Assembly (NCBI GenBank): GCA_937873695.1
Contig: CALMYL010000020.1
Span: forward strand, 124,001-188,000
Reading direction: 5' to 3'
From: an uncultured Ignavibacteria bacterium
Lineage (GTDB): Bacteria; Bacteroidota; Ignavibacteria; Tepidaquicellales; OLB5
Length of the DNA: 64,000 bases
This document shows, piece after piece, positions 4,435 through 28,531 of the stretch. Both the position numbers and the translations under genes were made by a program. Numbering within the stretch: the first letter of the stretch is position 1; every line of letters starts with the position of its first letter. Under the pieces are notes generated by a model that was given only the letters and a program-made list of their open reading frames with translations, had not been told where the DNA came from and ran no database searches.

Positions 4435-4998
4435 TTACACTTTCATCTTCGCCATCTCTGCCATCAAAAATCCCCTGTTCAGATTCAGCGCCGTTCTTAA
4501 AAATGGCAGTCCCGTTGTACCTTTCCTGGCGATCTTTCTGGCAATCGCAAGCGCGATGCCTTTTGATTCTGCCCACCTGTCCATTGCGCGCCGTCTCTTT
4601 ACTCCGCTGCCTCTTATAACCGTATTCCTGATAGCCGCAAGTCTTACACCGCCTTTTGTTCCCTCGCGGTTAGATGTCAGCCCTTTCAGGAGTACCCACC
4701 TCTGCAGCGGTTCAATTGGTGGAAAGTGCGGCTTCGTTCCCTCATGCCTGTATATGGCATACGGCACATTCGCGCCGGTACCAACCACACCTATTATCTT
4801 GCCGATCTCTTTTGTTACCTGGTAACGCAGACTCTTAAGCATCTCTAAGGAAGCGTAAGCTTTCCCCTTTCTTATCTCTGCGTCTGCGTCCGTCCGGACT
4901 TTTTCAAGGAACGTTCTTAAATGCTTTTCAACTTCCGCCTCAATAGCCTTAGTCGCTTTGCCAATGTTGACCTTTATTTCATTAGTATTCTTTGCCAC
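4435..4998 (-). CDS. HK97-gp10-like neck / head-tail joining protein
   Basis: 187 residues. YAIYRHEGTKPHFPP and the C-terminal GTTGLPFLRTAL are typical of the HK97 gp10-type tail-completion family ('Y....E.GT......PF..PA'). The N-terminal region is charged and helical. It acts at the head-tail junction of the virion. Basic overall. It sits between a gp36/DUF1320-like connector gene and a terminator-like gene, the usual order. Confidence 0.7.
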   Translation of the reverse strand: MAKNTNEIKVNIGKATKAIEAEVEKHLRTFLEKVRTDADAEIRKGKAYASLEMLKSLRYQVTKEIGKIIGVVGTGANVPYAIYRHEGTKPHFPPIEPLQRWVLLKGLTSNREGTKGGVRLAAIRNTVIRGSGVKRRRAMDRWAESKGIALAIARKIARKGTTGLPFLRTALNLNRGFLMAEMAKMKV

Positions 4999-5018
4999 GT
5001 CTCATCTAGCCTTTTCGC

Positions 5019-5483
5019 TTACACATCATCTTCACTTACAAGCGCCGCGAAACTCAATCCCGGTGTTATAAGTATATCAGGATTTTCATCCTCATCAGTA
5101 TCAACAGTTTTTGCGTATGGCTTCAAAAGCTTTTCAGCCTGATCTTTATGCCTCTGTATAATGGTATTAATATCAAGCTCGCTTACATTCTCTTTTCTGC
5201 CGTCACCAACACCGCGCGCTTTTGTAATACCGTCACCTGATGTAGATATGTTAAGCCCGGGGATAAGATAATAAAGCACAAATCTCGCTTCGGCTGTGAG
5301 TACATTTTTATAACTGTCATCGTCAACGCCAAGCGCATAGATCTCTTCATACTTAGCTTCGCCAATACGGTCAATAACATCAGCCTTAGCCTCAGGCAAA
5401 TAAGCTTCTATGACAGCCTGCTTAACCTTATCACCAAGATTGCCGATCTTCTGCACATCTTCATATGTCGCAAAGTAGCTCAC
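5019..5483 (-). CDS. Head-tail connector, Mu gp36 (DUF1320)-like
   Basis: 154 residues. The start MSYFATYEDVQKIGN and the mostly helical body with KADVIDRIGEAKYEEIY resemble DUF1320/gp6-type connector proteins, which begin with a short 'Y.t..dl......' helix. It is the second gene after the capsid gene, with the tRNA-Met between. Family assignment rests on pattern and position. Confidence 0.6.
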   Translation of the reverse strand: MSYFATYEDVQKIGNLGDKVKQAVIEAYLPEAKADVIDRIGEAKYEEIYALGVDDDSYKNVLTAEARFVLYYLIPGLNISTSGDGITKARGVGDGRKENVSELDINTIIQRHKDQAEKLLKPYAKTVDTDEDENPDILITPGLSFAALVSEDDV

Positions 5484-5606
5484 GAGAAAATACTCCGTAT
5501 TTTCGAAGTCCCGCTGAAAGCGGGATCATCATAAATTAAGCAGAAGGATCCCATTCGGGTAACCTTTTTACGCGCTGTTATTTTTGTCTTTTGATTTTTC
5601 ACTTTG

Positions 5607-5678
5607 TTGCGCAGGGAAGAATCGAACTTCCGTGTTCCAGCTTATGAGGCTGGCGAGATACCACTTCTCTACCGCGCA
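5607..5678 (-). tRNA. tRNA-Met (anticodon CAT), phage-borne
   Basis: Read on the minus strand: 7-bp acceptor (TGCGCGG/CTGCGCA with one G-T), TA linker, D stem GAGA/TCTC, anticodon stem CCAGC/GCTGG around CTCATAA, 5-base variable loop, T stem GGAAG/CTTCC around TTCGATT, discriminator A. CCA is not encoded. It could act as tRNA-Met or, if lysidine-modified, as tRNA-Ile(CAU). It lies in the structural operon between capsid and connector genes, co-oriented with both. Confidence 0.93.
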
Positions 5679-5748
5679 ATGTTGCCGGGTTACTTTATTG
5701 GAGGCTCAATTTCACCCGGCTATTCTGCTATGCAATTTTTTAAAAGAA

Positions 5749-6657
5749 CTAGTTTCTTGTCGCTATTACCAATGACTTTGAGTAGCCGTAGTTAGCGTCT
5801 ATCTCAGCCTTCGGCGTGTACTCAATGATACCGCCTTTCTTTCTTTCCTGTACCTGCCTGCCGATGTACATATTCAATCCAAAACCAACGTGCAGGTTTT
5901 TAGGGTTACAGAGTACGATCTCAGTTGAAGGCACTGCGAACAAAGGCCTGCAGTTCACGCCGTTTGATACCAGCGGCTGCGTGGAAAGCATGTCGCCAAG
6001 TCCTGTAGCCTTACCGGTTAACTCCCTGCGGTACTTTGTATAGTTAGCAAACGAAAGATAAAATTTAAGGCTCTGAGGATCAGCTTTGTACTTATCCGGC
6101 AGAGTATCCCATATCGCGTCAAGCACATCAGTGATCTTATCATTTTCAACAAAACCGCCGTCCAGTTTATTGGTATTATCGTCAGCCTTGGCTCTCACTA
6201 TATAACCGTCTACCAGTTTTAAGAACGGATCGCCCACCTCCGCCTTGTCGCCGTTCCATGCAAGGTCAACTACATCACGGCTGAATAAACCCATGAACTT
6301 GCTGGTGATGGTCTGCTCGGCGCCGCCCTTTTCAATGTTCTTCCTCAGGAACTTCATTGAAATATCGAACGGCCTTGCGACTTCAACCGGGGTCAAAGTC
6401 CTGCGCGGTATCGATACCACGTTCAGATCGGTTATGTCGGTATCTTCGGTTACGCCTGTTAGACCCCTTGTGTCCGCGTCCAGCGCGTCCATATTCAGCG
6501 TACCGGAAATATCGGTCTCTACCGATATTTCGCTAAGGAAGTCGTTCTCATCAACCATTGTATCTATAAAAGCTGAAAGCTCCTGCGGTGATACCTGCCC
6601 GCCTGTGCCTGTAGTTATTGTAGCTTTTATCAGCTCAATAATTTCTTCATTCTTCAT
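5749..6657 (-). CDS. Major capsid protein, HK97-fold
   Basis: About 302 residues from ATG 6657, which has GGAG about 9 bases upstream; an in-frame ATG nine codons earlier has no such site. It reads as a phage major capsid protein: N-terminal helix, E-loop-like region (DFLSEISVETDISGTLNMDA), and a C-terminal domain with FAVPSTEIVLCNPKNLHVGF and GIIEYTPKAEIDANYGYSKS, typical of the Mu/P2-like capsid end. It follows the protease-scaffold gene, as in Mu. Confidence 0.8.
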   Translation of the reverse strand: MKNEEIIELIKATITTGTGGQVSPQELSAFIDTMVDENDFLSEISVETDISGTLNMDALDADTRGLTGVTEDTDITDLNVVSIPRRTLTPVEVARPFDISMKFLRKNIEKGGAEQTITSKFMGLFSRDVVDLAWNGDKAEVGDPFLKLVDGYIVRAKADDNTNKLDGGFVENDKITDVLDAIWDTLPDKYKADPQSLKFYLSFANYTKYRRELTGKATGLGDMLSTQPLVSNGVNCRPLFAVPSTEIVLCNPKNLHVGFGLNMYIGRQVQERKKGGIIEYTPKAEIDANYGYSKSLVIATRN

Positions 6658-6735
6658 TCTTAAAGCTCCTTTGGTCCCACCCATGGCGGGAGCAGTTAAA
6701 TTTTTATAATAGTTTTTTTCGCTTTGCCGGTTAAC

Positions 6736-6930
6736 TTACCTTAAAAAAGGTAAACCCTTTTTCACTTCATCTGCAGGCTTCTGATCTTCAACCTGCTGCG
6801 AACCTTTGGATTTCTCCAACGCAGCATTCGCTTCATCAAGCTTCTTCTGAAGCTCTGCCTTTTCATCTTCTGATTTTTTTACGGCATCAGCTACCGCTTT
6901 TTCATGATCTTCCTTTGTGATGTTTTCCAT
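6736..6930 (-). CDS. Possible nested scaffold protein within the protease gene
   Basis: In-frame ATG at 6930 (MENITKEDHE) opens a 64-residue, highly charged coiled-coil segment ending in KKGLPFLR. Mu and lambda make the scaffold from an internal start in the protease gene; by analogy this may be one. No clear ribosome site is visible, so this is a suggestion. Confidence 0.3.
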   Translation of the reverse strand: MENITKEDHEKAVADAVKKSEDEKAELQKKLDEANAALEKSKGSQQVEDQKPADEVKKGLPFLR

Positions 6931-7842
6931 AGTCGTTTTATTTTTTATTTGTTTATTGATTTCCGCTCTTTTACTTTCCGCTGTTCCGGCTGAATCCATC
7001 AGCGACTGCATCGCGTCCATTGCAGCCTGCAGCTTCTTCATGTTTGAATCACTTATAACCTTGCCGGCCTTAATAACTTCACCCTTTGCAAGATCAATAT
7101 TCTGCGCGTATGCCTTGGCGTCATCCAGCACCTGTATGACAGCCTTTAATTTTTCGTCAATGCTCTTAAACTCATCCCACAGTATATCATACAGCGAGGA
7201 GCTTATAGCGTCAACCACCGTATTCACTTTAAACCTGGTTATCTTTTCATTGAAACCTTTAACTACTTCATTGCTTATAGCTTCATCCTCTTCTGAATCC
7301 AGCCACTTCATCAGCCTGTCAACAAGCTTCTGCTTGGTGCTCTTTGCGACTTCTTCTCTTACCGCATGTCCATATAAAGAGTAACCCGTGTAGGTCCCGT
7401 CTTTAACAGATTTCCATACCTCATCATTATCCACCTTGGAAACCACATACCACGTTCCGGGCTTTTCGTCCTTGAGTATGTCATGCGTTCCTCTCAGGAT
7501 TGCGCACTCAACTATCGTTACATCATCCACCGGGTTAAGATCATGCTGTGTATCAACAGCTTTTCTCGTGTTGCTTTTTGTCATGAATCTATGGCATGCC
7601 TTTTCAACTTCTTCAATATCCATCATATCATCGTGCGCGTCAGCTTCGCCCGGAGCGTAAACAACTCCATAAACTAATCTTTTCTCTTCATCGATCTTTG
7701 CGATCTCGATATGCTTATTGAAACTGAAAGCATCATCTTCATTCACACCCGCTGCCTTGTAAATGAAATTACGCTTGTTAGCGGCTTTATCCACAAACGA
7801 GAGCAATTCGACATCTACATCTTTAAGTTTATACTTTGCCAT
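6736..7842 (-). CDS. Prohead protease (XkdF-like) fused to a scaffold region
   Basis: 368 residues. The N-terminal part (about 1-170) matches the XkdF-type phage serine protease: ELLSFVDKAANKRNF, RLVYGVVYAPGEADAHDDMM, DTQHDLNPVDDVTIVE, GTWYVVSKV, YTGYSLYGHA. The C-terminal 200 residues are coiled coil and charged, as in scaffolds. The product would cut the scaffold during head maturation. An internal ATG at 6930 starts a 64-residue segment that could be made separately. Confidence 0.8.
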   Translation of the reverse strand: MAKYKLKDVDVELLSFVDKAANKRNFIYKAAGVNEDDAFSFNKHIEIAKIDEEKRLVYGVVYAPGEADAHDDMMDIEEVEKACHRFMTKSNTRKAVDTQHDLNPVDDVTIVECAILRGTHDILKDEKPGTWYVVSKVDNDEVWKSVKDGTYTGYSLYGHAVREEVAKSTKQKLVDRLMKWLDSEEDEAISNEVVKGFNEKITRFKVNTVVDAISSSLYDILWDEFKSIDEKLKAVIQVLDDAKAYAQNIDLAKGEVIKAGKVISDSNMKKLQAAMDAMQSLMDSAGTAESKRAEINKQIKNKTTMENITKEDHEKAVADAVKKSEDEKAELQKKLDEANAALEKSKGSQQVEDQKPADEVKKGLPFLR

Positions 7843-8802: not shown

Positions 8803-9453
8803 CTACGCCACATCTCGAATAATTTTTACAACCTTGTATATCTTATGCACTCTGCTCAGCGGTACTTCCTCCGGATGGTACTTTGTGTTCACACTATATA
8901 CCACAATATTTTCGCTGTTGGTTTTTTGCCTTTGGAATAATTTCACGCTCGCCTCAGTTGTACCGGGTCCTGATTTCCATTGCAGCAGTACAGCCGTATG
9001 ATCTTTTATATTTTCAAACGGTACCTCAGCGCATACAACATGATCGTTCTTTTCAATGTACGGCTTCATGCTGTCGCCAACTGCTTTCACTGCGAATACA
9101 AATTTGTAATGCCGCAAGCCATCAACTATTATAAAATCTTTTTCGCTTCTCTCCCATTGCGCCGCGGGTAACCCGCAGTCAGCCATAGCAAGCTCACTTA
9201 CTCTCCGGAAGTTTTTACCGTATCTGTCAATAATTTCTCCAGGCGCATCCTTTTCGTACATCTCCGCTTTATCATCAAAAAACCAATTAACATTTAAGCC
9301 TAGCCTTTTACGCGCAGCTTCAAAAAATTCCGGCTGAGGTTTGGTTCCCGTCTCATATCTCTGTATATTTTGATGAACTGTTCCAAGGACTTTAGCGAAC
9401 TCAGACAATGTACGATCTCCTCTTACGAGTCGTATTTTTTCTCCAATTGTCAT
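8803..9453 (-). CDS. C1/LexA-type phage repressor with S24 peptidase domain
   Basis: 216 residues from ATG 9453 (MTIGEKIRLVRGD); the longer frame upstream to 9540 would run through its own promoter. N-terminal HTH (LSEFAKVLGTVHQNIQRYETG, about residues 15-37). The C-terminal S24 domain has AVKAVGDSMKPYI (catalytic Ser in GDSM) and the AVLLQWKSGP strand where the Lys dyad is expected. It should keep the prophage silent by binding the operators at 9651-9697, and cleave itself after DNA damage. It faces the early operon divergently. Confidence 0.88.
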   Translation of the reverse strand: MTIGEKIRLVRGDRTLSEFAKVLGTVHQNIQRYETGTKPQPEFFEAARKRLGLNVNWFFDDKAEMYEKDAPGEIIDRYGKNFRRVSELAMADCGLPAAQWERSEKDFIIVDGLRHYKFVFAVKAVGDSMKPYIEKNDHVVCAEVPFENIKDHTAVLLQWKSGPGTTEASVKLFQRQKTNSENIVVYSVNTKYHPEEVPLSRVHKIYKVVKIIRDVA

Positions 9454-9475
9454 TTCACTAACTTGTGCAATACGA

Positions 9476-9504
9476 ATATAATACGATACACTTTGTAATG
9501 TCAA
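9476..9504 (-). promoter_or_regulatory. Probable repressor promoter
   Basis: Minus strand: TTGACA (9499-9504), 17 bases, TTATAT (9476-9481). Counted as the Bacteroidota form, TTG is followed 21 bases later by TATATTCG, one base off TAnnTTTG. It lies 23 bp before the repressor ATG. Confidence 0.55.
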
Positions 9505-9650
9505 TCCTAAAGCGGTTAAATAGTGGTTAAATTTATTCAAATACCATTATGCCGTTATACATATCCCCCGCGCCTTAAATGCGCCTCCTAACCCCGTTTC
9601 CGTGAGGAATTCGCTTATATCATTTATAATCAATGCTTTATAAAAATAAA

Positions 9651-9745: not shown

Positions 9746-10120
9746 TTGGAATACACAACAGAATCTCTTAAAGATATGGCAGCAGAACAATTGAAAGAGT
9801 TACTTGCTGTTAATGAAATTTCCACACGTAACATTGCAGCGGCATTAGACGTTAATCATTCAATTGTAGTATGCACTATCAACGGCAATTATAAAGGAGC
9901 CAAAGCTACAAGCAATAAAGTCTACCAGCAGATCGCGAAGATGCTTGAGGTACGCGAAGATCTTTCCGATGACATCTACAATAATGCCGCAATGTTTTCA
10001 AGACTGCTTAACATCGGCATCAAGCACAAAAGCTTTGATAACAACGAAACCGCAGTGCTCATCACAATCGCAAATACAATTAACAAATTTATAGAACATC
10101 AAAACAATAACCATGAATAA
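9746..10120 (+). CDS. Small HTH regulator, Ner/Cro position
   Basis: 124 residues. TTG start chosen because AGGGGG lies about 9 bases upstream; the next ATG (9776) lacks a site. An HTH-like stretch at about 25-55 (ISTRNIAAALDVNHSIVVCTI) is followed by YQQIAKMLEV. As first gene of the early operon, opposite the repressor, it sits where Mu has ner. Overlaps the next gene by 8 bp. Confidence 0.6.
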   Translation: MEYTTESLKDMAAEQLKELLAVNEISTRNIAAALDVNHSIVVCTINGNYKGAKATSNKVYQQIAKMLEVREDLSDDIYNNAAMFSRLLNIGIKHKSFDNNETAVLITIANTINKFIEHQNNNHE

Positions 10121-10562
10121 CAATTCAAGTCCAAACACAATCGTAGTTAACGGCGTAATGTATGTGCGCCAGGATACCATCGCAGTTGACAACAGACCCA
10201 TCGCCGAAAGAGTAAAGAGCTACGAAGATGCATGTCTTGTACTTGGCATCGAGCCCGCAGCTTCGCTGCCTGATGTCAATACAATCCTCGGTGAGAGCAA
10301 ATCAATTACCGCATTCGCAAAGCTTATCGTAATCACCCGCGCATTAAACGAAGGCTGGTCGCCAAACTGGAATGATGGCAGTGAATATAAATATTACCCA
10401 TGGTTCAAAATGAACAACTCGGGCTCCGGCTTGTCGTACGACGTCTTCGGTCTCTGGTATACGTATTCGGGTGTGCCGGCTCGCCTTTGCTTTAAATCTT
10501 TTGAGCTTGCTGAATACGCAGGCAATCAATTCATTGAACTATACACAGAATATTTTTTATAA
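10113..10562 (+). CDS. DGR target protein 1
   Basis: 149 residues, no signal peptide or membrane segment. The C-terminal half has the layout shared by the three target proteins: NDGSEYKYYPWFKM, then SGSGLSYD-V-F-G-L-WYTYSGVPARLCF and a short tail (ELAEYAGNQFIELY). Residues 103-126 are encoded by a variable repeat whose differences from the template all fall at template adenines. The family is found in Bacteroidota phages, with unknown ligand. It lies about 10.6 kb upstream of the template, in the early operon. An intracellular binding role is inferred from the lack of a signal peptide. Confidence 0.8.
   Translation: MNNNSSPNTIVVNGVMYVRQDTIAVDNRPIAERVKSYEDACLVLGIEPAASLPDVNTILGESKSITAFAKLIVITRALNEGWSPNWNDGSEYKYYPWFKMNNSGSGLSYDVFGLWYTYSGVPARLCFKSFELAEYAGNQFIELYTEYFL
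10419..10490 (+). repeat. DGR variable repeat of target 1
   Basis: Aligns without gaps to template 21027-21098. It differs at 15 sites, all adenines in the template (template positions 21029, 36, 48, 52, 55, 58, 60, 61, 66, 72, 78, 79, 86, 91, 95). No C, G or T of the template is changed. Confidence 0.9.
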
Positions 10563-11698: not shown

Positions 11699-13714
11699 AT
11701 GAATTCACAACTAAATAACTACATGCAAGAAACAACTCCCGTCACTGATCCCATAGATCAGCATAATACAAACGATGGAGTGTTAACAGCTGCTCATTTC
11801 TCGCTCGAAAAATTCTGCAAAGAAGCAATTGCGTCAAACGTAAAAGGATTTGTTAAGCTAACAGAGCTTGCCAAAACTCACGGCATAAACAGATCTTACC
11901 GCACATTAATTGACCTTGTCAAAAAATATAAAACCGGCGGTCTCACCGCGCTTAAGCGCAAGGAATATTCAGGCAAAGGCGATACACGCTCATTTTCAGA
12001 TCATGCCCTCCGCATCCTGCAAAAAAAATATATTGACTGTCTTGTTATCAGGAACGCGTATGAAGATATGCACAAAGAATTGCGGAAGATCGCTCAGTCT
12101 TTTATAGATGTTTCAACAGGCGAAGAATTCCTTATCAAAGATAACCTGCTTCATGAAATGACGGGCGGTACCGCTATTTCAATTCACTCTACTAAATTTG
12201 TCGAGTGTGTTTACCGTTTGCCGGGATACGATGAATCGCGAATAAACAATGAAAAATTTCAGGTCCGCGCAGGTTCTTACAAATCGGCCTGCCGTTACTT
12301 AAGCGCTTTAAAAGAAAATGAACCCGCCCTGTTTATGAACCGTTTCGGCATTCACGATTACCGCAACAAACGCCAGCACCCCATGAAGCTGAGTTACTCT
12401 CACCTCAATCCCAACTATTACCTGGTCGGTGATGGCAAGCAGCTTGATATTATCGTGATCTCCGAGGACTGGCGCCGTGTGTACCGTCCCTGGCTCATGG
12501 GCTGGTATGATATGGCTACCCGCCGTTATTGCTACGAACTTGCAGTCCACGAGGATTCTGAAAGCATCGCTAACTCATTGGCGGTCGCTATCCGTGAGTG
12601 GGGCGTTCCTGAAAAAGTGAAAACAGATAACGGCTCATCGTACACATCTGGTAGATTTGATGAAATGTGTAAATTCTTTAATGTCGAGCAGCATCATGCT
12701 ACAGTTAAGCTCGCACGCGCAAAGCCAATCGAATCGCACCATAATGTAATTGATAATCTTTGTAAATCTTCCATCGGCTATACGGGCGGCAAGTATGTTG
12801 ATATGCCGCTTGATACACGCGAAAGGATAAAACTTGCATTAGGCGCACAGCGTGACGCAAAGAAATACGCTAAACTTATAAAAGAGAATATCGGATTTTC
12901 ATTCACTATCGCGGATCCTGATGCAAGGCTTAAGAAATCCAAACGCCGCTTAATGCATATCAGCGAACTTAATGAACTGTTATCGGAAAAATTTGATGAA
13001 TACCATGAACGCACACACGGCGGATTGAAAAAAGACAAGCTTGGTAAACAAGTATACAATCTCAACTGCAAAGATGAACTTATAAATGAGTACGGCGAGA
13101 AGCTCAACTCACCCCGCGGCAGATACCAGTACTACGTGCAGCAGGGCTTTAAACCTGTTACTGCTGACCCTGCTATAGTCGCACTGTATGCTTCTAACTT
13201 TGATCTTCGTACTGTGCAATTTAAGACGGGCATCAACCTGGCAAACGGTGAATACTTTGATGCCAAGCTTCTGGGTGTTGCAGGTAAAAAAGTACTCATA
13301 CGCTACACTTCACCCGGCGCCATGAATATTTATGTATTCACATCAGATGAATTGCAGAAAATATCTGACCGCAAACAATTAACCCACGAAATTCATCAGG
13401 GCTTGAAGTTCATCTGTATTGCAAAGCGTCAGGAAATTATAGATTACGATGACCCAAGATATAAAGATGAACTCATTCTCCAGCGCGCGGAAGAAAGATC
13501 ACTCCGCGAATCTTTGGGTATAACTAAATACGGTGCCGCTACGCCTTACTCACGCGAAGCGGGAGGAAGGCCGCAAGACGGGGTCGCTTACTCCAACATC
13601 ATCCAGCTCAACCCGGCATCTGAAATGGCTGATGAGATCAAGCAGGCGGAAAAGGAAATTATCGCAAATAAAAAACCATCTTCAAACAAATATAAAGATG
13701 TGGATCTATATTGA
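11699..13714 (+). CDS. MuA-type DDE transposase
   Basis: 671 residues, near MuA length (663). N-terminal HTH-like DNA-binding part (FVKLTELAKTHGINRSYRTL). Catalytic core with D245 (LVGDGKQLD), D310 (VKTDNGSSY) and E345 (AKPIESHH), spacing D-34-E. Then a Mu-type C-terminal beta domain (about 490-570). It joins phage ends to target DNA for integration and replicative transposition, with the MuB-like ATPase at 14233-15120. Residues 615-624 (TPYSREAGGR) come from an in-frame palindrome. Start ATG 11699. Confidence 0.92.
   Translation: MNSQLNNYMQETTPVTDPIDQHNTNDGVLTAAHFSLEKFCKEAIASNVKGFVKLTELAKTHGINRSYRTLIDLVKKYKTGGLTALKRKEYSGKGDTRSFSDHALRILQKKYIDCLVIRNAYEDMHKELRKIAQSFIDVSTGEEFLIKDNLLHEMTGGTAISIHSTKFVECVYRLPGYDESRINNEKFQVRAGSYKSACRYLSALKENEPALFMNRFGIHDYRNKRQHPMKLSYSHLNPNYYLVGDGKQLDIIVISEDWRRVYRPWLMGWYDMATRRYCYELAVHEDSESIANSLAVAIREWGVPEKVKTDNGSSYTSGRFDEMCKFFNVEQHHATVKLARAKPIESHHNVIDNLCKSSIGYTGGKYVDMPLDTRERIKLALGAQRDAKKYAKLIKENIGFSFTIADPDARLKKSKRRLMHISELNELLSEKFDEYHERTHGGLKKDKLGKQVYNLNCKDELINEYGEKLNSPRGRYQYYVQQGFKPVTADPAIVALYASNFDLRTVQFKTGINLANGEYFDAKLLGVAGKKVLIRYTSPGAMNIYVFTSDELQKISDRKQLTHEIHQGLKFICIAKRQEIIDYDDPRYKDELILQRAEERSLRESLGITKYGAATPYSREAGGRPQDGVAYSNIIQLNPASEMADEIKQAEKEIIANKKPSSNKYKDVDLY
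13544..13570. repeat. Palindromic repeat inside the transposase gene
   Basis: Same 27-bp hairpin as 11011-11037, in the same reading frame, near the C-terminus outside the catalytic core. Confidence 0.75.
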
Positions 13715-14232: not shown

Positions 14233-15120
14233 ATGAAGGAACTATTAAACAGGCTCAACGCAATCCAGGAGCAGTACGAATTCTCTGACGCGCAGCTATG
14301 CTCAAAGATCGGTATTACCCCTGATGAATTATACCTGCTTCGCAATAACCGGCTAAGCGATCCGCTCAGGCTCCAGTTCATTCAGCGCTTTGTTGAAATG
14401 ATGCAGGAAAAGATCTATCCTACAAAGCTTCTCAATAAAATGGAAAACCTTTTCACGCTCACGCACAAAGAGCAGGCTATCACCATCGTGGGCTCAATCT
14501 CAGGCGGCGGCAAAACCCTGGCATCGGAACGTTTTTCCAACGCCAATACATACGCCGTGTATTTATACATCCCTGAAATTATCACACCGCGCCACCTGCT
14601 GGCTCTTATCTGCCAGAAGCTTGCGCTTCCATGGTCAGGCCTGAACCTGCAGCAGCTTTATGAGCAGATCATCGGCTCACTTGCACAGGAAAAAAAGCTC
14701 TTGATCTTTGATGAAGCTGACCGGCTGAATAAAAAGATGTTCGAGATCATGCGCGATATATGGTCTGATGGCAAGGGCAATGTCGGACTTGTATTTGTAG
14801 GTGATGAAAACCTCATGAATAAGATCAAACGCCCGGGCACACTGCGTGATAACCTCATCCGCTTAATGCGCCGTGTGAAGTATAACGAGATCCTCGACCC
14901 GCTCCATCCCGATGATGTGAAAATGGTATTCAAAACAGAGCTGGGCAAGCACAAGATCACAGACGATATGATAAAAGCTATCTTCAACAAATACTGCAAG
15001 CTTGGCGGGTTTGGTTCTATACTCAATTTAACGGATAAAATTTCAAAGATTGCAAAGAACACCGGCGACCAGCCCAACAACGAAATGGCAGAAGAAGCTA
15101 TAAAGAGATTGAAAATATAG
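14233..15120 (+). CDS. MuB-type AAA+ ATPase, target-DNA activator
   Basis: 295 residues. The N-terminal HTH (AQLCSKIGITPDELYLLRNN, about 20-40) is followed by an AAA+ domain with Walker A GSISGGGKT (87-95) and Walker B LLIFDEAD (156-163). MuB coats target DNA and delivers it to the transposase. The C-terminal helical part (KLGGFGSILNLTDKI) is as in this family. One base separates it from the upstream gene, so translation is coupled. Confidence 0.88.
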   Translation: MKELLNRLNAIQEQYEFSDAQLCSKIGITPDELYLLRNNRLSDPLRLQFIQRFVEMMQEKIYPTKLLNKMENLFTLTHKEQAITIVGSISGGGKTLASERFSNANTYAVYLYIPEIITPRHLLALICQKLALPWSGLNLQQLYEQIIGSLAQEKKLLIFDEADRLNKKMFEIMRDIWSDGKGNVGLVFVGDENLMNKIKRPGTLRDNLIRLMRRVKYNEILDPLHPDDVKMVFKTELGKHKITDDMIKAIFNKYCKLGGFGSILNLTDKISKIAKNTGDQPNNEMAEEAIKRLKI

Positions 15121-20123: not shown

Positions 20124-20516
20124 ATGAAACAAACCGAGGCAAACAGGGTAAAATTTGATTACCCGGCTGCATTGAATCTTTACACTGAGTTCTGTAAAGA
20201 GAATAATTTGGAAGTAAATCTTCCATATGCAGAACCCGCAACGGAAGATGAAATGAACACCAACGCATTTGTGATGGTGAAAAACATCAAGCTTATTGGC
20301 AACAAAGGAGTTGTACCTAATTCCATCAATGCCAACGAGTGGAAATATTACCCATGGTTCAAAATCAACAATTCGGGCTCCGGCTTGTCGTACGACGACT
20401 ACGATCGCTGGTATACGTATTCGAATGTGCCGGCTCGCCTTTGCAGTTTGGATTCTGATAATGTAGAATCAGATGCAAATAAGTTTCAGCCAATTTACGA
20501 TATTTTACAAAGTTAA
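20124..20516 (+). CDS. DGR target protein 2
   Basis: 130 residues from ATG 20124, chosen for AAAGGAAT upstream. Shares EWKYYPWFKINNSGSGLSYD and the VPARLC end of the variable module with targets 1 and 3. Residues about 83-108 are encoded by the variable repeat closest to the template (10 changes, all at template adenines). The tail after the repeat (SLDSDNVESDANKF) differs from targets 1 and 3. No signal peptide. Ligand unknown. Confidence 0.8.
   Translation: MKQTEANRVKFDYPAALNLYTEFCKENNLEVNLPYAEPATEDEMNTNAFVMVKNIKLIGNKGVVPNSINANEWKYYPWFKINNSGSGLSYDDYDRWYTYSNVPARLCSLDSDNVESDANKFQPIYDILQS
20372..20446 (+). repeat. DGR variable repeat of target 2
   Basis: Aligns to the full template 21026-21100. 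Ten differences, all at template adenines (21029, 36, 48, 60, 61, 66, 72, 86, 91, 95). Confidence 0.92.
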
Positions 20517-20528
20517 ATCTAAACAAAC

Positions 20529-20990
20529 ATGAAAAAGAAATCAAAGAAGTTTCTGCAGTTGTGCAAAAAGTACAACGTAAACCCTGATGAAGTCAGGGAA
20601 GTTTTAAGCGTCAAGCAGGCATTCAAATTACTCAATCTTGATCTGTTTAAAATGCCTGGCGTTTCAAAAATACCAAAGAGATTCAGACTTTGGCTGGAGT
20701 GGCTGTACAAAATGGCGGTTGTTACTGAGGCATTCAATACGGACGAAAACGGAAAGCTTTGGATTCCGAATTACAATGATTCCAGTGAATATAAATATGA
20801 AATATGGTGGGATGTAAAGGCTGATAAGAAACACCCTTCGGGCTCCGGCTTGTCGTACGACGTCTTCGTTTGCTGGGTTACGGCTTCGGATGTGCCGGCT
20901 CGCCTTTGCTTTAAAAATCGGGACACGGCGATTTTTGTAGGCAAGCATTTTGCCAAAGAATTCAAGTTCGTTCAACTTCATTTTGAATAA
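20529..20990 (+). CDS. DGR target protein 3
   Basis: 153 residues. Basic N-terminus (KKKSKKFLQLCKKYNVNP), a middle region absent from target 2, then NDSSEYKYEIWWDV, SGSGLSYDVF and VPARLCFKN. Residues 103-127 are variable. It is the target nearest the template, 36 bp upstream. No signal peptide or membrane helix. Starts 12 bp after target 2. Confidence 0.8.
   Translation: MKKKSKKFLQLCKKYNVNPDEVREVLSVKQAFKLLNLDLFKMPGVSKIPKRFRLWLEWLYKMAVVTEAFNTDENGKLWIPNYNDSSEYKYEIWWDVKADKKHPSGSGLSYDVFVCWVTASDVPARLCFKNRDTAIFVGKHFAKEFKFVQLHFE
20836..20909 (+). repeat. DGR variable repeat of target 3
   Basis: Aligns to template 21025-21098. Sixteen differences, all at template adenines, including two double changes (21066-67 and 21072-73) in AAT codons. 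Confidence 0.92.
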
Positions 20991-21025
20991 TATTTAAGGT
21001 TGTGCTCTCAAGATAGCTGTAGCGC

Positions 21026-21100
21026 TTCAGGCTCCAGCTTGTCGTACAACGACTACGATAACTGGAATACGAATTCGAATGTGCCAGCTCACCTATGCAG
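21026..21100 (+). repeat. DGR template repeat (TR), with 107-bp spacer to the RT
   Basis: 75 bp between target 3 and the reverse transcriptase, same strand. In the target frame it encodes SYNDYDNWNTNSNVPA: five Asn codons (AAC/AAT), the codon class that lets adenine mutagenesis reach many residues. Six adenines are changed the same way in all three variable repeats (29, 36, 48 near the 5' end; 86, 91, 95 near the 3' end), which suggests fixed homing or recognition segments. Eleven adenines between them vary. The spacer 21101-21207 probably belongs to the template RNA, as in Bordetella phage DGR; this is inference. Confidence 0.93.
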
Positions 21101-21207
21101 AAGTAAACAAAAGAGCAAACCCTGCCCGCATGGCAAAAGATTACGCTTCAAAAAACAAGGGCACCGGTACCGCAAGGGAACGTGACCTTGAGACCAAGCA
21201 AAGCAAA

Positions 21208-22161
21208 ATGAAAACAAGAAATAACTTATACAATCAGATCTGCAGTATTGAAAACCTGAACCTGGCCGATGATAAAGCCAGGAAAGGAAAGGTATACCAA
21301 TACGGGATAAAACAGCATGATAAACATAGGGAATCAAATATTTTACTCCTGCGTGAAATGCTGTTAAATAAAACCTATCGCACTTCTGCATATAAGAAGT
21401 TTACAATCCACGATCCCAAAGAACGTGAGATATTCTGCTTGCCGTATTTTCCTGATAGAATTATCCACCACGCCATTATGAATATACTTGAACCGGTATT
21501 TGTTTCAGTATTTACAGCGGATACATATAGCTGCATAAAAGGTAAAGGTATTCACGGCGCACTTCGGGCCATCAAAAAGGCATTGCTTGATAAAACAGGT
21601 ACCCGGTACTGCTTAAAGCTTGATATAAAGAAATTTTATCCAAGCATTGATCACGCGATACTGAAAGCATTACTGCGGAAAATCATTAAGGATTCAGATC
21701 TCCTGATGCTGCTTGATGAAATAATAGACAGCGCAGATGGTGTGCCGATTGGCAATTACTTAAGCCAGTATTTCGCAAATTTTTATATGGCTTATTTTGA
21801 CCACTGGATCAAAGAAGTTAAGCGGGTTAAATATTATTTCCGGTATGCTGATGATCTTGTAATATTTTCCGGTGATAAAGAAAGTCTGCATAAGCTTCTG
21901 GTTGAAATCCGCGAATACCTGGGCGATCATTTGAAGCTTACAGCAAAAGATAATTATCAGATATTTCCGGTTGATGCCAGAGGTTTGGATTTTGTTGGTT
22001 ACAGATTTTACCATACACACATTCTTTTAAGGAAACGCATAAAGCAAAGATTTATTAAAATGCTTAAGTACCGCAAGAACGATAAATCAATAGCATCATA
22101 TAAAGGCTGGATTCAGCATTGCAACGGGAAACATTTATTAAAAAAACTATTACATGAATGA
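21208..22161 (+). CDS. DGR reverse transcriptase
   Basis: 317 residues from ATG 21208 (MKTRNNLYNQICSIENL), which matches the usual N-terminus of DGR enzymes. An upstream in-frame ATG at 21079 lies inside the template repeat and is unlikely. Catalytic LKLDIKKFYPSID (136-148, D139) and YADD (213-216). The IGNYLSQ motif (181-187) is the DGR form of motif 4. It copies template RNA with errors at adenines, giving cDNA that replaces variable repeats. No typical Avd accessory gene is visible nearby; the next gene may serve instead. Confidence 0.93.
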   Translation: MKTRNNLYNQICSIENLNLADDKARKGKVYQYGIKQHDKHRESNILLLREMLLNKTYRTSAYKKFTIHDPKEREIFCLPYFPDRIIHHAIMNILEPVFVSVFTADTYSCIKGKGIHGALRAIKKALLDKTGTRYCLKLDIKKFYPSIDHAILKALLRKIIKDSDLLMLLDEIIDSADGVPIGNYLSQYFANFYMAYFDHWIKEVKRVKYYFRYADDLVIFSGDKESLHKLLVEIREYLGDHLKLTAKDNYQIFPVDARGLDFVGYRFYHTHILLRKRIKQRFIKMLKYRKNDKSIASYKGWIQHCNGKHLLKKLLHE

Positions 22162-22457
22162 GAACTTTTAAAGATTTCGGCATCAAAGCAGAGGCTGCAA
22201 GTTTCGTCGGTGACAAGATAAAAATAACAAGGATCCTGAATAAAGAAATAACCGTATATGCATACAAAATTGAAGACTCAAAATTTGGTGAAGATAAGAA
22301 AAGATTGTGCCTGCAGATTGAATTTGATAATGAAAAGCGCATTGTATTCACCGGTTCCGTTGTGTTAATGAACATGATTAAATCTGTACCCAAAGATGAT
22401 GGCTTCCCATTTAAAACAATAATTATCAAGACAGATGAAAGATATGAATTCAGTTGA
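22158..22457 (+). CDS. Small beta-rich protein coupled to the DGR reverse transcriptase
   Basis: 99 residues, overlapping the RT stop by 4 bp. Alternating strands (KIKITRILNKEITVYAYKIE, RLCLQIEFDNEKRIVFTGS, TIIIKTDERYEF) suggest a small OB-like fold. Tight coupling makes it a candidate DGR accessory or nucleic-acid-binding partner, but it is not an Avd-type four-helix bundle. Function inferred from context only. Confidence 0.6.
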   Translation: MRTFKDFGIKAEAASFVGDKIKITRILNKEITVYAYKIEDSKFGEDKKRLCLQIEFDNEKRIVFTGSVVLMNMIKSVPKDDGFPFKTIIIKTDERYEFS

Positions 22458-22665
22458 TCTCAAACCTGCCGCCGGGCTGTATATCGTTTGGCGAATTCGT
22501 GGATACATCACACTTGGTTACGTAAAGGCTGTAACCCTGGCAGGCAATTGTTATGTCGATTATCCCGGTATAGAGGGTACCATAAAAGCCCATCAAATAA
22601 TTGATGTGGTACGCACATATGAAGATTACAAAGAAAATGAAAAAGCAGGTAAATACAGATTATGA
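22435..22665 (+). CDS. Small phage protein of unknown function
   Basis: 76 residues (AGLYIVWRIRGYITLGYVKA, IDVVRTYEDYKENEK), overlapping the previous gene by 23 bp and the next by 4 bp. No family recognised. Confidence 0.45.
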   Translation: MKDMNSVDLKPAAGLYIVWRIRGYITLGYVKAVTLAGNCYVDYPGIEGTIKAHQIIDVVRTYEDYKENEKAGKYRL

Positions 22666-23093
22666 ACCTCATCCAAAATCCAATAACACCACAGCAGCGC
22701 GGCATGATCTTCGGACTTGCCAAAGACTGCAAGCTTTCAAACGACCAGCTGCACGACCTTATGCCCTCGTGGTCAGGCGCGCACTCTCTCAAACAAAATG
22801 CCTGCACAAAAGCCCAGGCAGATAAGATCATCGAAGCATTAAAAGCAATGAAAGATAACACCGTAGACGGCGTGGCTTGCCCGCCGCAGTCGCGGGTCTC
22901 CACCGGCAATATCGGCAAACCCGGATTCATCACACAAAATCAATACACCGCCATTAACAAAATATGCGCTGCCAAAAAGTGGAATATCGAACATCTCAAC
23001 AACTTCATCAAGCATACAACTGGCACGCTTACAGCGGATGAACTCACCATGAAAGAGGCTTCCGCCGTTATCACCGGCTTAAAAAAAATATAA
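22662..23093 (+). CDS. GemA-like (Mu gp16 / DUF1018) protein
   Basis: 143 residues. ITPQQRGMIFGLAKDCKLSN and SLKQNACTKAQADKIIEALK match the GemA layout: 'iTp.Q...I..l.....l' then 'S...lt..qa..ii..L'. A related helical unit appears again in the C-terminal half (ITQNQYTAINKICAAKKW). In Mu GemA is an early protein affecting host gene expression and DNA topology. It ends the early operon. Confidence 0.65.
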   Translation: MNLIQNPITPQQRGMIFGLAKDCKLSNDQLHDLMPSWSGAHSLKQNACTKAQADKIIEALKAMKDNTVDGVACPPQSRVSTGNIGKPGFITQNQYTAINKICAAKKWNIEHLNNFIKHTTGTLTADELTMKEASAVITGLKKI

Positions 23094-23135: not shown

Positions 23136-23357
23136 ATGACACTTGACGCAAACACAGAGCGTGTAATCAAAGAAGCAGAAGGGCTGGGTATTGCCGATGA
23201 AATAAAGATCAGAGATCTCCGCATACGGTGCGCATTCAGATCGATGCGCACCAACGGCATGAAATATGAAGATGCATTATATAAATGTCATCTCCAGTTC
23301 TGCCTCTCAGAAGAACGGATCAGATCTATAACTAAAGGTATTACAGTTAAATCATAA
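23136..23357 (+). CDS. Small protein before the terminase genes, Mor-like position
   Basis: 73 residues. The C-terminal half (KYEDALYKCHLQFCLSEERI) could be a helix-turn-helix like that at the end of Mor-type activators. In Mu, mor follows gemA, as here. Overlaps the next gene by one base. Assignment tentative. Confidence 0.4.
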   Translation: MTLDANTERVIKEAEGLGIADEIKIRDLRIRCAFRSMRTNGMKYEDALYKCHLQFCLSEERIRSITKGITVKS

Positions 23358-23851
23358 TGGCAGATAAAAAGAAAGAATCAATTAAACAGCTAAAGCCATA
23401 CATCAAAAAATTGTATGTTGAAGATTGCTGGGATGTACCCGGCATAGCTGCCGCATTGAATCGTAATGCCAAAACAATCTACAACTGGGTCAAAGCTGAA
23501 AATTGGGACCAACTCCGCGAAGAGCTTAATAAAAAATCCGCTAAAACCCCGGAGATACTTCTCAAAGCTTTGGAAGAGCAGATCGAAAAACTCAGCGAAG
23601 CAGGCGGAGTTGACGCCATCTCAAAAGTTGCTGATAGTATTTCCAAAATTTCCAAAACAATAAAATCACTCTACAAAGATCAGGATAGGCTTGGCTCTAT
23701 TCTTTTTGTCATTGCTGATATTGGCAAGTTCATAAAGGAAGAAGCCCGCACCGGCATACTGCCCGAGGACTTCTTCGGCAATTTGCGCACACTGCTTGAC
23801 CGCTACATGATTTACGCACTCAAAACTTACTCGCCGGGGATAAAGCAATAA
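23357..23851 (+). CDS. Terminase small subunit-like protein (Mu gp27 position)
   Basis: 164 residues. N-terminal HTH (CWDVPGIAAALNRNAKTIYN followed by WVKAENW), as in small terminases and Mu gp27-type proteins, then a long helical region for oligomerisation (KVADSISKISKTIKSLYKDQ). It would recognise phage DNA for packaging. Overlaps the large-subunit gene by one base. Confidence 0.7.
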   Translation: MADKKKESIKQLKPYIKKLYVEDCWDVPGIAAALNRNAKTIYNWVKAENWDQLREELNKKSAKTPEILLKALEEQIEKLSEAGGVDAISKVADSISKISKTIKSLYKDQDRLGSILFVIADIGKFIKEEARTGILPEDFFGNLRTLLDRYMIYALKTYSPGIKQ

Positions 23852-25359
23852 TGTCAACAACACCAATACAATTTAAGAAAAATTATCAGGAATTACTCGA
23901 CTTCATTTGCGCGGGCGTTCCTGTCTTTGGTGATAATGACCCCGTAATTCAGCGTGAAAGAATTGCAGCCTGCAAAACCGATAAAATACTTTTTGCAAAA
24001 ACTTACTTTCCGCATTACTGCGAAAATGAACCTGTTGAAATGCACTCCGAAATGTTCCGCATTTCCAGCCTCTCAGGTATCGGCGCGATTGTTTACGGCT
24101 TCCGCGGATGCGCCAAATCAACAATAATTTCTCTTATAGATGTAGTACATAAAATTGTTTACAACTCCAAACGTTTCATCGGCTTTATCTCTGCGTCAGA
24201 AGATAACGCTGCGGAATATACCATGCCCATCAGGGCTGAACTTGAAGCAAATGCCAGGCTGATAAATGACTTCGGCGAGCTCATGCAGGGAGCAAAGAAG
24301 AATCGCGATACTGATTTCATCACAAAAAACGGCGTGAGAGTTTTGGGGATAGGTCCAAAAATGTCACCCAAGGGCAGAAAGAATGTGCAGTACCGCTTCG
24401 ACCACTTCATCATTGAAGATATTGAAAGCCGTACTTCACCAAACAGCCCCCGCGTTGTAAAAAAGATCGTTAACTTCCTGCTGAAAGACGCATTCAAGGC
24501 AATGGTACCAATCAATTATAGCTTCATTTTCCTTGGTAACTATTTCAGTAAAAAATCAATACTGCATAAACTGCTGCATCACAACGATTGCAGGCATTTT
24601 ATAAAGGCAGGTTTTCCCGCATTGGTTGATGATGGCAAGGGTAATCTTGTTTCAGCATGGCCGGAAAGATTCCCGACAGATAAGCTGCTCCAGGATCTCG
24701 AACAGATGCCCGATACAGAGCGCGTAGAAATGCTGCAGAAACCCGAAGATGAAGACGCGTATTTCAATCCTGATTGGTTCAAACGTGTTGAGCCGTCAGA
24801 TGTTCCCGCTAACTTAAAGGTAGTTACATATTGCGATCCCGCAGTAGGCGAAACAAAAAAACAATGCTTTCAGGCTCTCGGCGCGGTCGGTCTCGAAGAG
24901 ACCAAAGATGAAACCGGCAAGCGCATTGACTACAAATATTACGTTCTATTTTCATCGCTTCGCCGTGAACCGAAATCCGCAATGGTAAAAAGGCATTTCG
25001 AAATATCAAAAGATTATGATTCAGCCTATGATTGCGTTGAAGCATTCGGCTACCAGGCTTCACTTAAAGATGACTACGAACAGGAAGAAGTACGGCAGGG
25101 TAAACGCATTAATTTGGTGATGGATAGAAATTACAGGTCAAAAGAAACAAGGATTGAAAGCCTGCAGTCACCCATATTGCGGGGCAAAATAGTGTTTGTA
25201 ATTCATAATGGCTTGAATGCGCTTATAGATCAATTCACCGATTACCCAGAGGGCTTCGTCGATGGTCCCGATATGATCGCCTGCGCAATCGATTTCATCA
25301 ACTTTAAGATTCTCAAAATTAAAAAGAAAGTTACATCTAGAATACTTGGTGCCGCATGA
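23851..25359 (+). CDS. Terminase large subunit (Mu gp28-like)
   Basis: 502 residues. ATPase Walker A GFRGCAKST (83-91) and Walker B-like FDHFIIEDIE (183-192). The nuclease domain begins near VVTYCDPAVGE (D329). It translocates DNA into the prohead and cuts it. Starts on the last base of the small-subunit gene and overlaps the portal gene by 4 bp. Confidence 0.85.
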   Translation: MSTTPIQFKKNYQELLDFICAGVPVFGDNDPVIQRERIAACKTDKILFAKTYFPHYCENEPVEMHSEMFRISSLSGIGAIVYGFRGCAKSTIISLIDVVHKIVYNSKRFIGFISASEDNAAEYTMPIRAELEANARLINDFGELMQGAKKNRDTDFITKNGVRVLGIGPKMSPKGRKNVQYRFDHFIIEDIESRTSPNSPRVVKKIVNFLLKDAFKAMVPINYSFIFLGNYFSKKSILHKLLHHNDCRHFIKAGFPALVDDGKGNLVSAWPERFPTDKLLQDLEQMPDTERVEMLQKPEDEDAYFNPDWFKRVEPSDVPANLKVVTYCDPAVGETKKQCFQALGAVGLEETKDETGKRIDYKYYVLFSSLRREPKSAMVKRHFEISKDYDSAYDCVEAFGYQASLKDDYEQEEVRQGKRINLVMDRNYRSKETRIESLQSPILRGKIVFVIHNGLNALIDQFTDYPEGFVDGPDMIACAIDFINFKILKIKKKVTSRILGAA

Positions 25360-26789
25360 GTACAAAAACTGTAAAGACAGATAAAAATAACATTCACATA
25401 CATCTGCATAGTGATGTTCCGGACTTTGCGAAAAACAAAGTATTTCATGTAAAGAAAGGAAAGGTAACTTCCAGCTACCAAACCTCAGTCTTTTATCCCG
25501 GTCAGATATTCAATTCAGATACTCCCGCAGCTTCCGCTGCGTCAAGAATGATAGCCAAAGCTTCCGCGCAGATCGAAAAAGATGAAAACAATTTTAGCCA
25601 GGGCATTACTCCGCCGGTGGATCCAAATGTATTAGCGGAACTTCGCACATACAACGCCTATCATGATAGATCTATTCGTATCAAAACTCAGGCTGTTGCC
25701 GGCATGGGCTATAATATCCTGCCTGTTGATGAGTCACTTGAAAACTATGATAACAGCCCAAACTACAAACGGCTCAAGGCTTTTACTGATATGCCAAACA
25801 ATCACGGCGAGGAATTTATTGATATTGTAAAAGCATATGCGGAAGATTACTACACCTTTTATTCTTCTTACCTTGAATTAGTCCCGAATCTTAAAGGTGA
25901 AATTGCCGAGATTTACAACATGCCAGCCTGTAATGTTCGCTTAAAAAAGCATTATAAGTCTGTGCGCTTTATTCAGAAAGAAGGAGCCAAAGAACAGCAG
26001 TTTGCTTTATTCAATCCCGATAGAAAAAAAAGGGATACTGAATTAAATGAAGTGTTGTGGCTTAAAGCTTATTATTCAAAATCAAAATATTACGCCGTAC
26101 CTGATTATTACAGCGCGGTTGGCGACATCATGCTTGACCGTTCATCTGTCGAATACAACATTAATCGCTTTAAAAATGGTATGATGATCGATTTTATGAT
26201 TATTGTTGAAGGCGGCGAAGTTGATTCGCAGGTGCTTACTGATATTAACAGCTTCCTTTCTAAGAATTATAAAGGCGTTTCCAACGCCGGCAAAGCTCTG
26301 TATCTTAATTCTGATTCACCCGAAGTGAAGATACACATTGAAAAAGTATCTGCCGATGTTAAAGATGCCAGCTTCCTCAAGCAGCGCGAATTCTCGCGCG
26401 ATGTTGTTATGGTCGCCCATGGGATGAATGCTAAAGTGTGGGGACTTGCCACTGCCGGGCAGCTTGGCTCAGGCGAGGGTGATATGATGTTCCGATTATT
26501 TGAGGAGCTTATTGGTAAACCCGATAGACAGATGTTCCAGAATAAGCTGAACAAGATCGTAAAATACGGCCTTGGCATTGATGATTTTTACATTGAGCTT
26601 AAGGAATTAACCGTTGAATCATGGAGAGATCTTCTTACTTCTCTGCGGCTTGCGCCATTCCTCACAGAAAATGAAAAACGTATTGCTGCAGGATATGAAG
26701 CAATTGATGATGCGGAAATTACACCTGAGCAAACGCTGAACAAAATGCATAATGAACTTTTGAAAATCAAAAAGCAGCTTGCGGAATAA
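25356..26789 (+). CDS. Portal protein
   Basis: 477 residues. VLAELRTYNAYHDRSIRIKT and VAGMGYNILPVDESL are typical of phage portal proteins (crown/wing entry), with VRFIQKEGAKEQQFALF and QREFSRDVVMVAHGMNAKVW later. Length fits. It forms the dodecameric ring through which DNA enters. Between terminase and F-like genes, as in Mu gp29. It is closer to PBSX-type portals than to DUF935. Confidence 0.82.
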   Translation: MSTKTVKTDKNNIHIHLHSDVPDFAKNKVFHVKKGKVTSSYQTSVFYPGQIFNSDTPAASAASRMIAKASAQIEKDENNFSQGITPPVDPNVLAELRTYNAYHDRSIRIKTQAVAGMGYNILPVDESLENYDNSPNYKRLKAFTDMPNNHGEEFIDIVKAYAEDYYTFYSSYLELVPNLKGEIAEIYNMPACNVRLKKHYKSVRFIQKEGAKEQQFALFNPDRKKRDTELNEVLWLKAYYSKSKYYAVPDYYSAVGDIMLDRSSVEYNINRFKNGMMIDFMIIVEGGEVDSQVLTDINSFLSKNYKGVSNAGKALYLNSDSPEVKIHIEKVSADVKDASFLKQREFSRDVVMVAHGMNAKVWGLATAGQLGSGEGDMMFRLFEELIGKPDRQMFQNKLNKIVKYGLGIDDFYIELKELTVESWRDLLTSLRLAPFLTENEKRIAAGYEAIDDAEITPEQTLNKMHNELLKIKKQLAE

Positions 26790-27718
26790 TGAGTATCTAT
26801 GCGCAAAATATCGCAGCTAAACAAGTTGACTCAATGCTATTGCTTGTCGAGGATATGCAGTCAGTTGTTTTGCTGAAAGATGATAAAGCTTATACAAAAT
26901 TATTAAATAAGCTTCGCGATGCTATTGCCACAGCATACAATGAACAGACCCGCAGCGCATTGAGGGAAGCAATTGAATACCTCGTAAATAAAGGTGCTGA
27001 TAAATTCATTTTGGCTGATGCATTAAAGATCGATGAAATACTTTCCGCTAAGCTTGGCAAGGATCTCGAAAAACTTGTTGCTGATGATGTTAATAAATTA
27101 ACATCTGATATATTAAAGCTTGGCAAAAGTGAGATACTTAAGCCTCTGAAAATGAAATTATCATTCAATGTCAATGATGTTGAAGCATCGAAGATACTAG
27201 CTGAGCAAAATTTATTTTGGGTTGGCGAGCATTACAGCAAGAACCTGAAAGCAAAGTTTGATGAAATTACATCAGGTTATTTTGATTCAGATAAAACGCT
27301 CCAGCAGATAGCCGATGATTTTGAAAAGAATTTTAAAAACCTCACTAACCAGGGTGAGCAGTACTTCTACGATCTTGCGGAGCATCAAACCAACACAGTC
27401 AGAGAGCTTGGCAAAGTAAATGGATTCGAGCAAGCCAATGTGCAGTATTATGAAATTCGCGCTATTATCGATGACCGCACCAGTGACATTTGCCGGCGCA
27501 TGAATGGAACCATCTTTCCGGTTGAACGTGCCATTGAATACAGGGATAACATTTTGAATCTCAATGATCCTGAAAAGATCAAAGAGGCTTCGCCCTGGCT
27601 ATCGCCGGAAGAAGTGCAGGCACTCCCTGCTGACGCAGCGGACCTGCCCCCGGGTCTATCGTTGCCTCCATACCATTTCCGCTGTAGAACTTTATGCGTT
27701 GCATACTTCAAAGAATGA
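26789..27718 (+). CDS. Mu F-like / SPP1 gp7-like minor head protein
   Basis: 309 residues. The C-terminal motif ends PPYHFRCRT, preceded by EIRAIIDDRTSDICRRMNGT: the defining part of the Mu F-like domain, with its Cys/His residues. It helps head assembly. It is the last recognised phage gene on the plus strand; the protease and capsid genes that normally follow are on the minus arm. Confidence 0.88.
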   Translation: MSIYAQNIAAKQVDSMLLLVEDMQSVVLLKDDKAYTKLLNKLRDAIATAYNEQTRSALREAIEYLVNKGADKFILADALKIDEILSAKLGKDLEKLVADDVNKLTSDILKLGKSEILKPLKMKLSFNVNDVEASKILAEQNLFWVGEHYSKNLKAKFDEITSGYFDSDKTLQQIADDFEKNFKNLTNQGEQYFYDLAEHQTNTVRELGKVNGFEQANVQYYEIRAIIDDRTSDICRRMNGTIFPVERAIEYRDNILNLNDPEKIKEASPWLSPEEVQALPADAADLPPGLSLPPYHFRCRTLCVAYFKE

Positions 27719-27906: not shown

Positions 27907-28531
27907 AAATAGGGGGTCGGTAAATATTTGCATCCGGCAAAAACGCAACTTATTTGGTTGAAAAAGAGAGCTCCGCTCAGTCCGCAAAAAATTATTGCAT
28001 TTTCTGTTATTCTATGGGCGGTATTGAGCGGCTTTGCTGCACTTTGCGTCTATAACTATAGTTTTCACTGCGTGGGTGCTCCTAATTGCACCCACTCCGT
28101 TCAGCATTCACAATATAGTGATGCTTCGGCAATATGCTCACTTGTGGGTGTTTTTGCATTCGCAAAAAGCACTGCGTTCGCATTCTCATTGCCTCAGCGC
28201 ACCATCCCAGCCACAAGCGCAGCCAAACCGAAAAGCGCAAAGGTTTCAGCTGGTTTCGCCAGCCTTGCTTTACCTCAACCGCTTCCACCTTTGCATACCG
28301 CCTTCCATCGTGACAATTTGTCAAATATACCCAAAATAATCCCTGTAAATTCCACCCTGCGAAATTTAATCAAAAATGCAATATTGCAAAAATTTGTGTC
28401 AATCGGCGGGTCAATTTTTGCAGGCAATTGTAAAAATTGCAATTTTTTGTGTCCTTAAGCGTTCGCTATGTTATTGAAATATAAATAAGTTGCGTTTTTG
28501 CCGGATGCAAATATTTACCGACCCCCTATTT
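27907..28531. mobile_element. 625-bp element with 49-bp perfect terminal inverted repeats
   Basis: The ends 27907-27955 and 28483-28531 are perfect inverted copies (outer end AAATAGGGGGTCGGTAAATA). The interior has a strong hairpin GTGGGTGC/GCACCCAC (28072-28095) and T-rich or A-rich stretches. Open frames exist on both strands (27928-28458 plus; 28082-28324 minus), but neither resembles a known transposase, so it is non-autonomous or an RNA-bearing element. No clear target duplication seen. It sits between the last phage gene and the first host gene. Nothing else is recognised in 27719-27906. Confidence 0.75.

Follow-up and report, generated by a model that had tools for sequence, protein, structure and literature searches.

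A diversity-generating retroelement in a Mu-like prophage of the Ignavibacteria, and a conserved reading frame that is probably part of it

The window, by which we mean the whole stretch of 64,000 nucleotides analysed, carries a prophage in the genome of a member of an Ignavibacteria genus, and the plus strand of this prophage contains a diversity-generating retroelement (DGR). The features of the locus are listed below (TR, template repeat; VR, variable repeat; RT, reverse transcriptase; L034, the corresponding locus of a sister species).

4435-7842, minus strand: virion genes (neck protein, capsid protein, head maturation protease), on the strand opposite to the DGR
8803-9540, minus strand: S24-type phage repressor (profile matches)
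10113-10562, plus strand: target gene 3, 149 aa, with its VR near the C-terminus (phrog_11581, unknown function)
10418-10492, plus strand: VR3, 15 core differences, 15/15 at TR adenines
11699-13714, plus strand: MuA-like transposase (profile matches)
14233-15120, plus strand: MuB-like transposition ATPase (profile matches)
20124-20516, plus strand: target gene 1, 130 aa (orthologue with identical length and start at L034:15278-15670)
20372-20446, plus strand: VR1, 10 core differences, 10/10 at TR adenines
20529-20990, plus strand: target gene 2, 153 aa (orthologue L034:15683-16144)
20837-20911, plus strand: VR2, 16 core differences, 16/16 at TR adenines
21026-21100, plus strand: TR (ungapped alignment with the three VRs)
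21101-21207, plus strand: structured spacer RNA, Rfam RT-17-like, 107 nt (covariance model R1, covarying pairs)
21208-22161, plus strand: DGR reverse transcriptase, 317 aa, with IGNYLSQ and YADD (motifs, profiles, tree)
22158-22457, plus strand: conserved DGR-linked ORF, here called ACC, 99 aa, overlapping the RT stop by 4 nt (ATGA), predicted OB-like
22662-23093, plus strand: GemA-like (Mu gp16 region) protein (profile matches)
23357-27718, plus strand: small (DNA-binding) and large terminase subunits, portal and MuF-like protein (profile matches)

The prophage contains MuA, MuB and Mu-type early genes including DUF3164 and GemA, followed by terminase, portal and MuF genes, in agreement with the preliminary description of this DNA, which had recognised a Mu-like prophage in a probable Ignavibacteria host. 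Its layout between positions 362 and 27718 is split: the minus strand holds the virion genes, to the left of the repressor, and the plus strand holds the early genes, DGR, terminase and portal. A tape-measure gene is located further left, beyond the window. The prophage of the sister species shows a similar split layout. A truncation of the prophage to the right of MuF was ruled out, since head and tail genes were found on the minus strand. A search of the same genome for the PF10124 capsid family returned nothing. Directly behind the last gene of the phage, and ahead of a host efflux operon, 625 bp (27907-28531) are enclosed by inverted repeats, about 46 bp long and almost perfect (AAATAGGGGGTCGGTAAATATTTGCATCC...), and this stretch looks like a small non-autonomous transposable element.

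To compare the repeats, we aligned the TR and the three VRs as 75-mers, which required no gaps. Over the core (positions 2-73 of the 75-mer, 72 nt with 20 template adenines), all 41 differences summed over the three VRs are at template adenines, with hypergeometric P values of 3.4e-7 for VR1, 1.2e-12 for VR2 and 1.3e-11 for VR3. Our counts reproduce the 10, 15 and 16 adenine-only differences reported in the preliminary description (VR1 10, VR3 15, VR2 16), and the pattern recurs in a second species and at about 160 related loci. The span given there for the element, 20372-22161, contains the TR, VR1, VR2 and the RT but leaves out VR3, which lies about 10 kb upstream of the other repeats. Beyond the TR and these three VRs, no further repeat copies were found in the genome. 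When the full 75 nt are considered, the only non-adenine mismatches are one in VR2 and two in VR3, solely at positions 1 and 75, which fall beyond the repeat proper.

Six template adenines (positions 4, 11, 23, 61, 66 and 70) have the identical replacement in all three VRs of the window; these shared replacements point to the IMH/IMH* end or to common ancestry and thus are not independent events. Independent variation among the three VRs is found at positions 27-54. Positions 61, 66 and 70 are A in the TR and G, G and T in all six VRs of the window and the sister species, and the location of three of the six shared sites at the 3' end is as expected for IMH versus IMH*; a difference of this kind at the 3' end of VR and TR is one of the features by which DGRs are recognised. 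An 8-bp inverted repeat, also present in the sister species, is located just after VR2 and was equalled by 8 of 500 shuffles. Since a hairpin after the VR is clear at VR2, weak at VR1 and missing at VR3, we make no general claim for it. Codon analysis of the TR revealed 12 variable codons and about 1e10 possible products with zero stops, and its AAC/AAT codons leave five positions open to any of 15 amino acids, stop-free.

The same analysis in a second species of the genus (genome G011, locus L034) revealed a TR that equals that of the window except for 2 bases near the 5' end, and three repeats in genes homologous to the window targets but mutated differently. These repeats show 12, 16 and 17 adenine differences from their own TR and one other base, so that the six repeats pooled have 86 adenine differences and one other change in about 312 non-adenine cells. 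Changes outside the adenines in related genomes had been named beforehand as evidence against a DGR, and a single cell is all that was found. The target-gene DNA upstream of the VR is 73-80% identical between the two species and the RT genes are 77% identical; changes restricted to adenines in the VRs, despite 20-27% divergence of flanks and RT, are as would be left by repeated rewriting from a conserved template. The comparison shows DGR activity after the two species split.

The pattern was also detected in G004 (L036), of the same genus, and in the viral contigs L005, L006, L007, L008 and L010, and five of the first viral contigs inspected have the same cassette. At least one adenine-type repeat pair is present at 162 of 183 related loci, which are partly non-independent because some contigs recur. 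Pooled over the related loci, there are 4,845 differences at adenines and 576 others, a count that includes unfiltered repeat ends.

The reading frame of the RT opens at 21079, within the TR, and its homologues begin at the ATG at 21208. The protein has both motifs reported earlier, IGNYLSQ and YADD, corresponding to the DGR-clade motif [I/V/L]GxxxSQ (QGxxxSP in introns) and to YxDD. Among phage RT families it matches phrog_1423 with an E value of 1.5e-123. Its best solved relative is PDB 8ub7 (E 1.8e-80), which we take to be the Bordetella phage DGR RT, and the best group II intron RT scored 2.7e-35. In the tree, the window RT groups with BPP-1 and apart from the intron-type RTs with full support, the branches of BPP-1 and Hankyphage being long. 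The profile check suggested in the preliminary description therefore places the RT, by its sequence, among the DGR enzymes, and the scores together with the tree rule out a group II intron or retron origin.

The VRs are located at the 3' end of the targets, 70-79 nt before the stop, and the TR is near the RT, an arrangement typical of DGRs. The targets are short proteins of about 150 aa encoded in early phage modules: near RTs of the type with a downstream ORF, 225 of the 235 targets that are complete have fewer than 250 aa, with a median of 151, the short targets occur two or three per locus, and their neighbours are DNA methyltransferases, primase/helicase, exonuclease, DUF3164 and GemA. Target gene 3 is located before MuA in the window and after MuB in the sister prophage (L034:12520-12960), as if targets were mobile inside the early region. 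In the model of a target protein the VR has a pLDDT of about 40, and no known fold was matched, C-type lectin included.

In several DGR clades the majority of phage targets carry a tail-protein annotation (PMC8144416), and those relatives of the window RT that have long targets include annotated tail proteins. From this it could be argued that the three short targets serve in the virion as receptor-binding proteins and are not intracellular early proteins, a serious alternative to which we give not quite an even chance. The size of the targets and the genes around them argue against it, as does the position of target gene 3 between an early regulator gene and MuA; moreover, no hydrophobic or membrane segment was found in the targets, and the window targets did not match virion families in a profile search. 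If the targets are indeed intracellular early proteins, such short, multiple, non-tail targets would broaden the range of proteins that phages diversify.

The spacer between TR and RT is conserved and has a structure of 12 pairs that forms in 95% of cells, compared with 34-47% when slid, and compensatory changes were found in 12 of the 12 pairs (64 sequences in both analyses). The covariance model R1 matches the window at 21097-21208 with 74.5 bits, the window being part of its training set. It gave 40 matches in 48 sources, each of them in the spacer and many in loci outside model building, and no match in intron-type outgroups. A structured RNA 3' of the TR is a further mark of DGRs, and the BPP-1 control was also positive.

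Comparison with Rfam indicates that RF03020 (RT-17) aligns with the window spacer over its full length, reaching 20.4 bits where the gathering score is 40.4. At three related DGR loci RT-17 exceeds its gathering score in the spacer between TR and RT, where R1 matches too, and we describe the window spacer as an RT-17-like RNA on this basis. The spacer of Hankyphage p00 (L228:38551-38700) is Rfam RT-3 (146.6 bits) and that of BPP-1 is RF03022 (Phage_DGR). RT-17 and RT-3 thus appear to be the spacer parts of DGR template RNAs, which would give these two Rfam RNAs a likely role.

The ORF that overlaps the end of the RT gene is conserved together with it. When the linked ORF was used as query, 17 of 17 loci found in 2.9 million viral contigs adjoin a DGR-type RT (this search used a short peptide pattern that reaches close relatives only), as do both loci found in 50,697 phage records (ANMV-1 virus and vir525) and all four in 396 genomes of the phylum, the own genome being one of the four. 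When RTs were used as query, the linked ORF was directly 3' in 77 of the 79 viral loci and 45 of the 79 genomic loci that extend far enough. It forms the C-terminal domain of 13 further RTs and of one at a contig end, and in the Hankyphage p00 RT the linked domain occupies residues 327-423. Eight loci carry it in the position that avd occupies in BPP-1, between target and template; three more loci show a longer overlap with the end of the RT, and in one it is 1.2 kb away. Overall, the linked ORF is present in about 167 of the 183 related RT loci, and 117 distinct separate sequences were collected. The iterated profile was built without the RT fusions, which pull in RT sequences, and given the long BPP-1 and Hankyphage branches in our quick tree we claim no number of fusion events.

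The linked ORF had no match in Pfam, NCBIfam or PADLOC. Its AlphaFold model (pLDDT 87) has the strand order beta-beta-beta-alpha-beta-beta, which is of OB type; its PDB matches are weak (best E 0.08) and include RPA-, Teb1- and HIN-type OB proteins, and the nearest viral models in BFVD are phage RT C-termini and one 'SsDNA binding protein'. The product is thus predicted to be OB-like.

The accessory protein Avd is present in many DGRs but not in all, and is no requirement for membership. The preliminary description had called the element complete; bAvd, however, is absent, and the different, conserved ORF is found beside the RT instead. A search with PF22296 detected bAvd in BPP-1, and not in the own genome (G000), G011, Hankyphage, ANMV-1, vir525 or cr55_1. 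PF05635 was dropped as a test for Avd, since it does not detect the Avd of BPP-1. Six proteins of this family (23S rRNA-intervening-sequence) are encoded elsewhere in the genome, away from the DGR (G000 C6, C7, C20 and C30; L229-L234).

These data suggest that the linked protein is probably part of the DGR machine. We infer that it binds nucleic acid and takes the role of Avd, which the ORF may replace. Fourteen of the 183 related RTs have enough flanking sequence and no detectable copy, as would be expected if 22158-22457 were an unrelated phage gene hitchhiking behind the RT with no role in the DGR. We consider this unlikely, since the linked ORF was never encountered apart from a DGR RT, forms a single protein with the RT in 13-14 loci and in Hankyphage, takes the place of avd in eight loci, and persists from archaeal viruses to Bacteroidota phages. 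The DGR itself belongs to a known lineage, and any novelty would lie in assigning the linked ORF to the DGR and in identifying the two Rfam RNAs. The novelty of the ORF link is uncertain because Wu et al. 2018 are said, in a passage of PMC10053308, to propose one further DGR-associated protein without a Pfam entry.

Taken together, we hold with high confidence that this is a genuine phage DGR, active since the split from the sister species, with the following pathway and targets. The TR and the structured spacer 3' of it would be transcribed, and the RT, probably assisted by the downstream OB-like protein in the place of Avd, would make a cDNA of the TR in which adenines are matched by random bases. 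The cDNA would then replace the matching end of any of the three target genes, with the outcome shown by the TR/VR pattern and the pathway taken from BPP-1, and the five AAC/AAT positions could receive any of their 15 amino acids with no stop codon arising. The diversified targets would be the three short proteins among the early phage genes. That the cassette is a fossil, formerly active and now inactive in this prophage, is quite improbable: the six replacements common to all VRs and the stretch GACGTCTTCG shared by VR2 and VR3 would fit it, but the RT, the linked ORF and the targets are all open, the catalytic motif is intact, and the VRs differ from each other and from those of the sister species almost only at adenines, with the one change in about 312 non-adenine cells. 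From this DGR we extend, tentatively and with more doubt than conviction, to a large phage DGR lineage without Avd. In it an OB-fold cofactor, either a separate protein or a domain of the RT, would act together with an RNA of the RT-17/RT-3 type, and the proteins hypermutated would be small, cytoplasmic and early, in place of receptor-binding tail proteins.

Among the known systems, the DGR is of the ordinary Bacteroidota/crAss type. The DGRs of Bacteroidota and crAss-like phages correspond to RT lineage 3 in Wu et al. 2018, as cited in PMC7290462, where this lineage is described as having no accessory protein. They share with the window the target-TR-RT order, the absence of Avd and the adenine-only differences, and the identity of the window RT to crAss-like phage RTs reaches 60% (cr55_1). 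They differ in their target, which is one tail protein in the crAss-like type and two to three short proteins of an early module here. The accessory ORF of the window is a separate, well-conserved gene, and cr55_1 has no more than a poorly scoring tail on its RT. BPP-1 has the same TR-spacer-RT order, adenine mutagenesis and a spacer RNA; it differs in having bAvd (PF22296, E 2e-37) between target and TR and a tail-fibre target, and the linked ORF was not found in its DGR. The archaeal viruses ANMV-1 and Caudoviricetes vir525, with DGR-type RTs, have the linked ORF directly 3' of the RT as in the window, but their RTs are 37-42% identical to that of the window, they have a single long target and their spacer is not matched by R1.

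Hankyphage p00 (BK010646) is, like the window prophage, a Mu-like transposable phage, here of Bacteroides, with a DGR that is experimentally active in culture (PMC12135933), a linked domain (fused to the RT) and a structured spacer RNA in the same place. It differs in an RT that is 32% identical, one very long target and a spacer that is RT-3 and not RT-17. The DGR described here is one more clear case, and the linked ORF may matter more: with this conserved partner fused to the RT in the culture-active DGR of Hankyphage (PMC12135933), the question of the missing Avd is directly testable in a laboratory strain of Bacteroides.
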